Source: Chitinophagaceae bacterium
GTDB taxonomy: Bacteria; Bacteroidota; Bacteroidia; Chitinophagales; Chitinophagaceae
NCBI GenBank assembly: GCA_019745155.1
Contig: JAIETM010000005.1
Location: 1 to 64,000 of the forward strand
Length of the DNA: 64,000 nucleotides
Direction: 5' to 3'
The notes under the pieces were generated by a model that was not told the origin of the DNA, searched no databases, and was given only the letters and a program-made list of their open reading frames with translations. A program made the position numbers and the translations under genes. Shown one piece after another: positions 8,875-9,712 of this stretch; positions within the stretch are counted from its first letter, which is position 1; every line of letters begins with the position of its first letter.

Positions 8875-9048
8875 AAAGAGAATTGTTGGAATGGCTTCTT
8901 GATATACAAGTATCCAGTCCTTGGCTTTTTTGGTGGATTTACTGCCTGAGTTGTTGTGTCGAAATAGTCTGTCATCTAAGTTGGCAGTGTGGCCAACATA
9001 AAAGCTGTCCAATGATTTTGAATAAATGATATAGACAATAAAAGGCAT
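8788..9048 (-). pseudogene. Truncated GIY-YIG nuclease gene (duplicate copy)
   Basis: From its ATG at 9048 this frame encodes almost the same protein as the intact gene at 9139-9387 (PFIVYIIYSKSLDSFYVGH, then DDRLFRHNNSGSKSTKKAKD) up to LVYQEA. Homology stops abruptly at base 8894; past that point the frame reads unrelated residues antisense to the end of the SDR gene. About 27 C-terminal codons, with the conserved REAAIKK helix, are missing. The ATG again directly follows the T-run of a tRNA terminator. It is probably non-functional. Confidence 0.8.
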
Positions 9049-9081
9049 AAAAAAGCCCAACACTTTTTGAGGGTTGGGCTG
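9049..9081 (-). terminator. Duplicate tRNA terminator (downstream unit)
   Basis: On the minus strand AGCCCAAC and GTTGGGCT pair and are followed by TTTTTT, immediately before the ATG at 9048. It is a copy of the terminator at 9388-9421 with two fewer bases in the loop. Confidence 0.8.
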
Positions 9082-9085
9082 ATAG

Positions 9086-9141
9086 TGGAGAATACCGGAG
9101 TCGAACCGGTGACCTTCCCGACGTGCCGTCGGGACGCTCTA
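9086..9141 (-). pseudogene. tRNA-Ala 3' remnant with hairpin in place of the anticodon arm
   Basis: Read on the minus strand it begins at TAGAGCG (end of the D-arm), then carries the 19-nt hairpin TCCCGACGGCACGTCGGGA (9116-9134), then AGGTC and a T-arm, 3' acceptor strand and discriminator identical to the intact tRNA-Ala. The 5' acceptor strand and most of the D-arm are absent, replaced by the end of the GIY-YIG gene. It cannot make a normal tRNA. Confidence 0.85.
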
Positions 9142-9387
9142 TTGTTTTTTGATGAGTTGTTGAATGAAGTTTTTGCTTTTTTGTTTCTTGATTGCAGCTT
9201 CTCTTGCCATTGCTTCAGCCCTTGTTGTAAAAGCTTCTTGATAGACAAGTATCCAGTCCTTGGCTTTTTTGGTGGATTTGCTGCCTGAGTTATTGTGCCG
9301 AAATAATCTGTCATCTAAGTTGGCAGTATGGCCAACGTAGAAGCTGTCCAGCGATTTTGAATAAATGATATAGACAATAAAAGACAT
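9139..9387 (-). CDS. Small solitary GIY-YIG endonuclease
   Basis: An 82-residue single-domain GIY-YIG protein of the UPF0213/URI type. VYIIYSKSLDSFYVGHT carries the two-strand GIY...YIG motif, DDRLFRHNN the catalytic-type Arg, and AMAREAAIKKQKS the conserved helix with Glu. The frame is open back to 9468, but those codons lie in the tRNA and its terminator, so the start is ATG at 9387, touching the terminator T-run. Expression therefore needs read-through or an unseen promoter. The family is nuclease-like; the role of solitary members is unsettled. The link to duplicated tRNA sequence suggests a selfish element. Confidence 0.85.
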   Translation of the reverse strand: MSFIVYIIYSKSLDSFYVGHTANLDDRLFRHNNSGSKSTKKAKDWILVYQEAFTTRAEAMAREAAIKKQKSKNFIQQLIKKQ

Positions 9388-9421
9388 AAAAAAGCCCAAC
9401 ACTTTTTTTGAGGGTTGGGCT
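9388..9421 (-). terminator. Terminator of the tRNA-Ala transcript
   Basis: On the minus strand AGCCCAAC (9414-9421) and GTTGGGCT (9393-9400) form the stem, followed by TTTTTT at 9388-9393. It begins five bases after the tRNA discriminator base and ends at the GIY-YIG ATG. Confidence 0.85.
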
Positions 9422-9426
9422 GATAG

Positions 9427-9500
9427 TGGAGAATACCGGAGTCGAACCGGTGACCTCTTGCATGCCATGCAAACGCTCTAGCCAGCTGAGCTAATTCCCC
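9427..9500 (-). tRNA. tRNA-Ala (anticodon GGC)
   Basis: The 74-nt sequence folds as a complete cloverleaf. The acceptor GGGGAAT/ATTCTCC contains the alanine identity pair G3:U70. The D-arm is GCTC...GAGC. The anticodon arm is TTTGC-ATGGCAT-GCAAG, with U33, GGC at 34-36, A37 and the A32/U38 pair typical of this isoacceptor. The T-arm is ACCGG-TTCGACT-CCGGT. The discriminator is A and CCA is not encoded. It is the only complete tRNA seen in the window and is the third element of a transcript whose first two elements are altered half copies. Confidence 0.95.
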
Positions 9501-9530
9501 AAGGTAAAGAACGATTGAGTTGTTAATTCA

Positions 9531-9586
9531 GCGGTGACCTTCCCGACGTGCCGTCGGGACGCTCTAGCCAGCTGAGCTAATTCCCC
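9531..9586 (-). pseudogene. tRNA-Ala-like half copy 2 with hairpin anticodon arm
   Basis: It carries the tRNA-Ala 5' acceptor strand and D-arm exactly, then TCCCGACGGCACGTCGGGA (9541-9559; 7-bp stem, loop GGCAC) where the 17-nt anticodon arm belongs, then the variable region and the first T-stem strand. The T-loop and 3' acceptor strand are missing. It could be a decayed tRNA or an RNA element in its own right. Confidence 0.75.
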
Positions 9587-9617
9587 ATAGAAAAAGAGCG
9601 TTTGAGTTGTTAATCCA

Positions 9618-9673
9618 GCGGTGACCTTCCCGACATATCGTCGGGACACTCTAGCCAGCTGAGCTAATTCCCC
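9618..9673 (-). pseudogene. tRNA-Ala-like half copy 3 with variant hairpin
   Basis: As copy 2, but the hairpin at 9628-9646 reads TCCCGACGATATGTCGGGA on the minus strand. The seven-base arms are unchanged and all differences are in the five-base loop, so the stem rather than the loop has been kept. One D-arm base differs (GAGTG for GAGCG). It lies immediately downstream of the array promoter, at the position of a normal first tRNA. Confidence 0.75.
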
Positions 9674-9681
9674 AGAGGGTG

Positions 9682-9712
9682 CAAAAGTAAGTTTTGGTTA
9701 GTTCTAGCCAAA
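9682..9712 (-). promoter_or_regulatory. Promoter of the tRNA-Ala array
   Basis: On the minus strand TTTG (9709-9712), 19 bp, TACTTTTG (9682-9689) is a full match to the Bacteroidota consensus. Transcription would start a few bases before half copy 3 and pass through copy 2 and tRNA-Ala to the terminator at 9388. Confidence 0.75.

Follow-up and report, generated by a model that had tools for sequence, protein, structure and literature searches.

A stretch of 64,000 nt from a Chitinophagaceae bacterium (JAIETM010000005.1, positions 1 to 64,000; hereafter the window, its genome being designated G000) carries on its minus strand a tRNA-Ala locus in which a small GIY-YIG nuclease gene is enclosed by tRNA-derived pieces. 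According to the analysis presented here, this locus is probably (with a probability of roughly two in three) a tRNA-anchored selfish element. The original prediction, a small selfish element composed of tRNA and a GIY-YIG endonuclease, holds in that the arrangement was found beyond this strain and assembly, in other species, genera and families. It was too narrow in that tRNA-Ala is just one of 12 isotypes, in addition to transfer-messenger RNA (tmRNA), next to which such genes were found.

Small GIY-YIG Genes Are Associated with tRNA Genes

The family survey covered 60 genomes, one per genus from 60 genera of the Chitinophagaceae, and yielded 92 small GIY-YIG loci; these represent the stronger matches (to about E 5e-10) and exclude long frames (UvrC and fusions) and two fragments (G031:C80 and G039:C223). 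The ARAGORN program placed a tRNA or tmRNA within 300 bp of 56 of the 92 small free-standing loci (within 150 bp of 52), a count in which some tRNA hits are hairpin-bearing copies themselves (e.g., L051, L056 and L076), one hit near a nuclease is called 'Stop' (L107), and three loci with tRNA-like fragments (L082, L094 and L095) are scored as having no tRNA. All 56 linked genes are located on the strand of the tRNA, which lies upstream of the nuclease gene in 44 of them. As for the controls, which were 20 long-frame GIY-YIG genes, mostly UvrC-sized with one of 1380 codons, no tRNA was found in any of their 4.3-kb windows (Fisher 2.4e-7).

The linked loci use 12 tRNA isotypes and tmRNA and are often in tandem, with arrays of 2 to 8 units. 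A tRNA-derived 15-mer is present elsewhere in the locus in 48 of the 56 loci, and a 12-mer in 51. GC-rich perfect hairpins accompany the tRNA-derived fragment in 38 of 51 loci and occur within intact tRNAs in 7 of 56; a natural T arm accounts for at least one of the 38 (L083), and some of the listed hairpins are terminators or natural arms. In the loci that were read, the replaced arm is the anticodon arm for Ala, Arg(TCT) and Lys, the D arm for Pro and Phe, and the T arm for Asp and tmRNA, while the replacement for Met lies between the anticodon and T arms. Locus L107 (G051:C1:4956300-4960900) contains two ARAGORN 'Stop' tRNAs, the nearer with the anticodon TTA, beside two nuclease copies; these tRNAs are probably hairpin-altered tRNA copies. 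In addition, a contig end lies within a few hundred bases of the loci L069, L070, L071, L088, L090 and L095, a position to be expected where tandem units interrupt the assembly.

Beyond the family, another 28 loci were fetched from the phylum, and 7 of these have a tRNA nearby, always on the strand of the nuclease gene. Eight extra loci were picked by hand, mostly for their tandem copies; seven of them entered the extended tree and none the adjacency rates. In one of the eight, L267 (G111:C34:5500-11500), a GIY-YIG unit of 359-368 bp, which is built on a tRNA-Met-like fragment and has hairpins of the TCCGCC..GGCGGA type, is repeated eight times in tandem (positions 1435-4285); no intact tRNA was called in this stretch.

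Structure of the tRNA-Ala Locus

Reading of the sequence, open reading frames (ORFs), repeats and tRNA confirmed the predicted order of the parts on the minus strand. The locus begins with the octamer TACTTTTG (9682..9689) ahead of the tRNA-Ala pieces, which we take to be a Bacteroidota-like -7 promoter box on the basis of the consensus TAnnTTTG. The promoter of the original prediction corresponds to this box; a sigma-70 scan gave no promoter-like sites at the locus. Eight bases behind the box starts the first of two tRNA-Ala 5'-half copies (9587..9673), which consists of the acceptor 5' strand and D arm, a hairpin instead of the anticodon arm, AGGTCACCGC, and a spacer. The second half copy (9501..9586) follows the same plan. 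Both copies had been predicted to be 86 bp long; their lengths are 87 and 86 nt, respectively.

Next comes an intact tRNA-Ala with the anticodon GGC (9426..9500; ARAGORN; Rfam 61.8 bits); a DNA search in the G000 draft assembly matched no other GGC copy. This tRNA is followed by a terminator-like hairpin AGCCCAAC..GTTGGGCT with a T run (9388..9421; -13.1 kcal/mol, z -3.3) and by an intact gene encoding a GIY-YIG nuclease of 82 aa with a minimal domain (9139..9387). The T run abuts the ATG of this gene, and its TAG stop is the TAG within the tRNA-derived TAGAGCG, so the gene is indeed wedged between tRNA parts at both ends as predicted. The tRNA-Ala 3' remnant (9085..9141) comprises TAGAGCG, a hairpin, AGGTC, and a complete 3' half. 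Behind it are a second terminator-like hairpin with a T run (9049..9080) and a second, truncated GIY-YIG copy (8883..9048) that starts at 9048; the repeat including this copy has 92% identity over 186 nt and ends at 8883, where the homology stops, and the ORF continues through unrelated sequence to 8788. A pattern scanner found no terminators at the locus, probably because the loops of both terminator-like hairpins exceed the 8-nt limit of the scanner.

Each of the three tRNA-derived pieces has TCCCGAC-loop-GTCGGGA in place of its anticodon arm, flanked by GAGCG (GAGTG in one piece) and AGGTC; the intact tRNA-Ala is spared. The same hairpin had been predicted for every piece. Its sequence TCCCGACGGCACGTCGGGA is identical in two of the three, namely, half copy 2 (9541..9559) and the 3' remnant (9116..9134), and half copy 1 contains the loop variant TCCCGACGATATGTCGGGA (9628..9646). 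We infer from this layout that the anticodon arm was the single point to either side of which units were added, with one intact tRNA retained.

According to the ORF list, the nuclease gene is the only gene-sized ORF between the tRNA copies of the window; the list likewise contains no integrase-sized ORF within the unit, the neighbouring genes having had no profile scan. The GIY-YIG frame is open upstream into the tRNA (a 109-aa ORF at 9139-9468), and automatic annotation may therefore extend such proteins at the N-terminus by residues that are in fact a translation of tRNA and terminator. Matches above the Rfam gathering score were limited to tRNA in the window and to tRNA or tmRNA in five related loci. 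A group I intron carrying a GIY-YIG endonuclease was rejected because no intron RNA was among these matches, and a hammerhead-like reading of the hairpin in the tmRNA locus described below was dropped on the same grounds.

Related Loci in the Same Genus

The G000 genome contains two further small GIY-YIG loci, located 3' of tmRNA and 3' of tRNA-Asp. The tmRNA locus follows the plan of the tRNA-Ala locus: the tmRNA is followed by a terminator, an ORF, a stem-loop inserted after GGGG and before TTCGA, and another tmRNA 3' end that has a terminator. In G001, a second genome of the genus (two contigs), the tRNA-Ala locus has the layout of the window, here with half copies in triplicate and a tandem pair of full units; because G001 shares it, the layout of the window is unlikely to be an assembly artefact. 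Two tandem units are also present at tRNA-Asp of G001. The third genome, G002, has one unit at tRNA-Ala and two at tRNA-Asp.

It had been argued that genes lying far from tRNA-derived hairpin repeats in close relatives would speak against an element. Most of the loci found in the genus are at a tRNA; two loci of G002 depart from this, L036 having tRNA-like fragments only, which reach the contig end, and L038 lying within palindrome arrays and not at a tRNA. In L038 (1060-2380), GGTACTCGAAGGC-type palindromes form a long array that surrounds the GIY-YIG gene and is in part masked as N.

The tRNA-Asp genes of the sister species G000 and G001 carry different elements. Their upstream flanks share 96.4% identity over 1087 bp, and the similarity runs no further than the final nucleotide of the tRNA; past this point the two genomes have nucleases of different clades. 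Further down, the G000 locus contains a truncated remnant of the G001-type element (78% over 108 bp), which covers the tRNA end, the terminator and the gene start. As for the tmRNA locus, it is occupied in G000, and in G001 the flanks are syntenic on both sides with a different interval, in which a protein search of G001 gave no GIY-YIG match. A second tmRNA-associated tandem GIY-YIG pair was observed in another family (L269, genome G090). The tmRNA-linked genes of G000 and G090 are not nearest neighbours in the tree, and these captures therefore look independent.

Nuclease Protein

The window protein matches PF01541 with 62.4 bits (curated cut-off 22.6; E 4.9e-17). Its AlphaFold2 model (pLDDT 83.7, pTM 0.70) has UPF0213, Slx1 and UvrC chains as the 12 best fold matches in the Protein Data Bank; the closest solved relatives are UPF0213 proteins 1ywl and 1zg2 by sequence, and, by fold, the same two proteins and Slx1, a nuclease that acts on branched DNA. 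Residues Y6, Y17, G19, R27, H31 and E63, which we presume to have the catalytic roles, are invariant across 27 aligned rows. The dN/dS ratio is 0.02-0.13 among Ala-type copies and 0.09-0.13 between the window gene and two copies from the same genus; this purifying selection suggests that the protein has been kept functional.

At the column of the C-terminal Asn, the window protein has Ile, and the palindrome-type rows considered below have a nearly invariant Asn. According to the available text of the 2006 superfamily survey (PMC1564403), absence of this Asn separates the Slx1-like/UPF0213 proteins from the UvrC/homing lineage. The nuclease is possibly Slx1-like, although the Asn of the palindrome-type rows makes this placement tentative. 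Other profile searches gave low scores: TIGR01453 reached 23.7 bits (under the cut-off of 56.05), PHROGs gave only weak 'endonuclease' matches (best E 7e-4), and PADLOC contained nothing that matched the window protein with an E value of 0.01 or lower. For the paralogues, the tmRNA-linked L002 matched phrog_5123, 'homing endonuclease with GIY-YIG motif', over 31 residues (E 4.6e-5), and two had only weak PADLOC matches (PDC-S14, 0.0019; REase_II, 0.0013).

Relatives Paired with Palindromes

The original prediction regarded tRNA as the partner of the nuclease. This is correct for the linked loci, and relatives without tRNA are often bracketed by palindromes of the repetitive extragenic palindrome (REP) type; the palindrome therefore looks like the general partner and tRNA like a special case.

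The strongest test, which is independent of the genome-wide pattern counts given below, used named loci that were found by protein and come from many phyla; of 80 such loci, one was dropped for a short flank. Flanks of 350 bp contained a CGTC-like motif on one side or both in 72 of the remaining 79 loci, 54 of which had it on both sides. Because this motif is loose, shifted controls were used; at positions shifted by 1400 or 1700 bp, the motif occurred on both sides in 0/68, 0/74, 1/66 and 1/73 loci. The 54 two-sided loci include Bacteroidota, Methylocystis, Henriciella, Sphingomonadales and Kamptonema, as well as records of Omnitrophota, Spirochaetes, Chloroflexi and Acidobacteria; Mastigocoleus (L198) does not belong to this set.

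In the family survey, 36 loci have no nearby tRNA, and 34 of them have enough flanking sequence. A repeat of at least 14 nt common to both 300-bp flanks was found in 18 of the 34 loci (one of these repeats, in L094, is a tRNA fragment) vs. 0 of 19 controls. Hairpin strength did not separate the two sets (stem of at least 8 in 14/34 unlinked loci and 9/19 controls), so the argument for the unlinked loci rests on the shared repeats.

Particular palindromes go with particular nuclease clades. The patterns were derived from nuclease flanks in some of the counted genomes, and the match beside the gene is thus partly built in; for this reason, GTCATNNCGAGGNACGAN and GTCATNCCGAGGNACGAGGNATCT were recounted by eye, leaving out copies on the contig of the gene within about 1.5 kb. 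With clades drawn after counting, GTCATNNCGAGGNACGAN{1,2}GNNATCT was found in 6/7 genomes with one subclade vs. 4/53 others, and CTTCGNCTNCGCTCAG in 6/8 genomes with two other clades vs. 7/52 others. Away from the gene, the former has 9, 7, 4, 3, 3 and 1 copies in G027, G041, G043, G044, G052 and G034, respectively. The highest counts of CTTCGNCTNCGCTCAG (150, 41 and 26) belong to three of its six genomes; of the two copies in G052, one or both lie beside the gene.

For a third subclade, the list of genomes (G011, G020, G035 and G059) was fixed before GTCATNCCGAGGNACGAGGNATCT was counted. These genomes have 38, 25, 12 and 9 copies, of which 35, 18, 8 and 1 are away from the gene; the palindrome occurs once in 1 of the 56 other genomes, and the reversed pattern has no copies (Fisher 1.0e-5). 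The pattern was read from flanks in its own subclade, so this outcome is partly built in, which does not apply to the dispersed copies and the near-absence elsewhere.

The stem bases of the palindromes covary (TCC/GGA, GCC/GGC, CCC/GGG), with rare exceptions. The TCCGCC..GGCGGA pattern exceeds its control in G053 (46 vs. 0), G031 (23 vs. 0) and G028 (22 vs. 1), with unclear enrichment in G061 (22 vs. 13), and is therefore regarded as a hint only. In addition, a CGTC-type palindrome (G041:C38:63998-64022) was observed about 260 bp from the tRNA-Leu-linked GIY-YIG gene of L040; both kinds of partner can thus meet at one locus.

Isotype Sorting and Alternative Explanations

A nuclease tree was constructed from 90 columns, with 35 of its 95 inner branches unresolved. 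On this tree, the tRNA isotype changes 23 times over 61 rows, and none of 2000 shuffles was as low (mean 44.0, minimum 36). The division into tRNA-linked and unlinked loci requires 6 changes over 98 rows (shuffled mean 30.0, 0/2000); a few unlinked rows fall inside tRNA clades, and the unlinked loci are mostly in other clades.

Several observations weigh against a tRNA-anchored selfish element. Cleavage, excision, insertion and transposition were not seen in this computational analysis. The tmRNA region of G001 is not a clean empty site, synteny resuming after 1.8 kb in G000 and 2.4 kb in G001. The hairpin of the window is not dispersed in G000, with 7 sites at up to 2 mismatches, three of them in the locus itself, and 5 sites for the reversed control. 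Plasmid and phage collections contained no matching record. No tRNA-derived 15-mer occurs elsewhere in the locus in 8 of the 56 linked loci, including the tRNA-Asp locus of G000. Outside the family, the nearest row has the same isotype for just 5 of 15 rows. Finally, within 12 isotype groups drawn by hand, the upstream neighbour is shared in 21 of 60 pairs, some of these matches being short.

The last figure means that inheritance at one tRNA with later decay could yield part of the isotype sorting, and some lineages may have been inherited vertically at the same tRNA. As a full explanation, the loci would be ordinary chromosomal genes, for example, Slx1-like repair nucleases, kept beside tRNA by vertical inheritance, with tandems and fragments arising through unequal recombination. 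The strong purifying selection and the solved relatives UPF0213 and Slx1 agree with this explanation. Nevertheless, it is unlikely, since downstream neighbours are shared in none of the 60 pairs, different nuclease clades lie behind the same tRNA-Asp within one genus, and the association is repeated at 12 isotypes and tmRNA. The replacement of a tRNA arm by a palindrome, and the pairing of palindromes with nuclease clades among the unlinked loci, also argue against it.

The 3' ends of tRNA genes are hot spots of recombination and integration, and the break in synteny at or shortly past the tRNA 3' end would fit a process in which such hairpin-rich sites break and duplicate with the nuclease gene merely carried along. 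This is improbable: the nuclease is the sole gene-sized ORF between the tRNA copies of the window, the linked gene is on the tRNA strand in every case (in a survey that consisted of GIY-YIG genes), and the nuclease phylogeny goes with the neighbouring sequence. Type III toxin-antitoxin loci have the order promoter, tandem structured repeats, terminator and nuclease, which the window resembles, and upstream tRNA-like hairpin RNAs might restrain a nuclease behind a leaky terminator, yet this is very improbable, given that the loci read often have a normal tRNA alone upstream and the hairpin copy downstream of the gene, that palindrome-type relatives have motifs on both sides, and that the window protein lacks a PADLOC match at the threshold given above.

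Proposed Mechanism and Significance

If the locus is a tRNA-anchored selfish element, its typical unit would consist of a tRNA 3' part, the tRNA terminator, a minimal GIY-YIG gene, and a second tRNA copy with one arm replaced by a GC-rich palindrome. A unit that supplies a tRNA 3' part of its own would leave the host with one intact tRNA gene. The nuclease gene may be expressed by readthrough of the tRNA terminator. Its product, closest to the structure-specific Slx1 and UPF0213 enzymes, would cut at a cruciform-prone tRNA arm or at the palindrome replacing it, and repair of the break by recombination from a unit-bearing copy would produce a new unit or a longer array. The palindrome could be a mark of the cut site, a scar or a recognition end. 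Each lineage would keep to a single tRNA gene or a single family of palindromes, the sister-clade relatives pairing with REP-type palindromes in place of tRNA. Cutting, copying and mobility are predicted here from sequence comparisons.

A wider proposal, to which we are inclined by a small margin, is that minimal Slx1-like GIY-YIG nucleases are the missing dedicated enzymes of CGTC-type and related palindromes and form a new selfish class across many phyla. One branch would have adopted tRNA genes as its palindrome, with sub-lineages at particular isoacceptor genes that rebuild the invaded tRNA and leave palindrome-scarred copies. Such a branch would illustrate how essential tRNA genes can be occupied by a gene of roughly 80 codons and yet stay intact, and it would account for GIY-YIG genes in tandem, for tRNA fragments with hairpins, and for contigs that end at tRNA loci.

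CGTC-type REPs are found in several phyla, and the available text of the paper that named them gives no enzyme moving them (PMC3733652). Nuclease clades that match the palindrome variant of a genome make this question directly testable. The results also bear on whether further GIY-YIG families are molecular parasites, which the 2006 survey, in its available text, left open (PMC1564403).

Comparison with Known Systems

Elements that target tRNA genes for integration restore the 3' end of the tRNA, a displaced piece of which stays behind. The loci described here have both features; they differ in that the window-type unit is a few hundred bp long, has no integrase-sized ORF, and has one tRNA arm replaced by a palindrome.

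The nearest tested precedent is SegB of phage T6, in which GIY-YIG cutting in tRNA DNA is followed by tandem amplification. SegB is a free-standing GIY-YIG homing endonuclease of tRNA clusters in T-even phages; according to the portions of the report available, the purified enzyme cleaves a tRNA-containing locus, drives tandem amplification of tRNA-Tyr with truncated segB, and has no favoured isotypes (PMC13096335). In both cases a GIY-YIG nuclease gene lies beside tRNA genes, whereas the segB gene belongs to a phage and the window-type genes are chromosomal, encode 82 aa, are sorted by isotype, and are followed by palindrome-substituted tRNA copies.

REP elements with their RAYT enzymes (REPtrons) combine GTAG palindromes with a tyrosine HUH enzyme, as described in the text available (PMC3733652). 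The sister clades resemble them in having one small nuclease-type gene between palindromes that are also dispersed in several genomes; palindromes on both sides are a feature of these clades only, and the hairpin of the window locus is, as noted above, not dispersed in G000. In contrast to REPtrons, the enzyme here is a GIY-YIG nuclease and not a tyrosine HUH transposase, and the palindromes are CGTC-like or tRNA-associated and not of the GTAG type.

As of 2013, CGTC-type REPs were apparently without a dedicated transposase, according to the available text of Di Nocera and colleagues (PMC3733652). The repeats at the Methylocystis gene, e.g., CGTCATTGCGAGGAGCGAAGCGACGAAGCAATCCA, have the same CGTC start, AT first in the stem and CCA tail, as matched to the text description in that paper and not to its consensus figure. 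The difference is that the CGTC-like repeats here bracket GIY-YIG genes. As for prokaryotic Slx1-like GIY-YIG proteins, a role in DNA repair was predicted for them, in the portion of the survey available (PMC1564403); they and UPF0213 share with the window protein the minimal standalone domain, and 1ywl, 1zg2 and Slx1 are its closest structures.

The string 'GIY' is absent from the main text of a 2025 REP survey (PMC12306157). In the openly licensed literature, no title or abstract opening among the matches listed tied GIY-YIG nucleases to REPs or palindromes in cellular genomes, or to bacterial tRNA genes. None of the nearest known kinds has all the features that define the proposed element class here, which in its predicted workings would resemble a REPtron or a free-standing homing gene.

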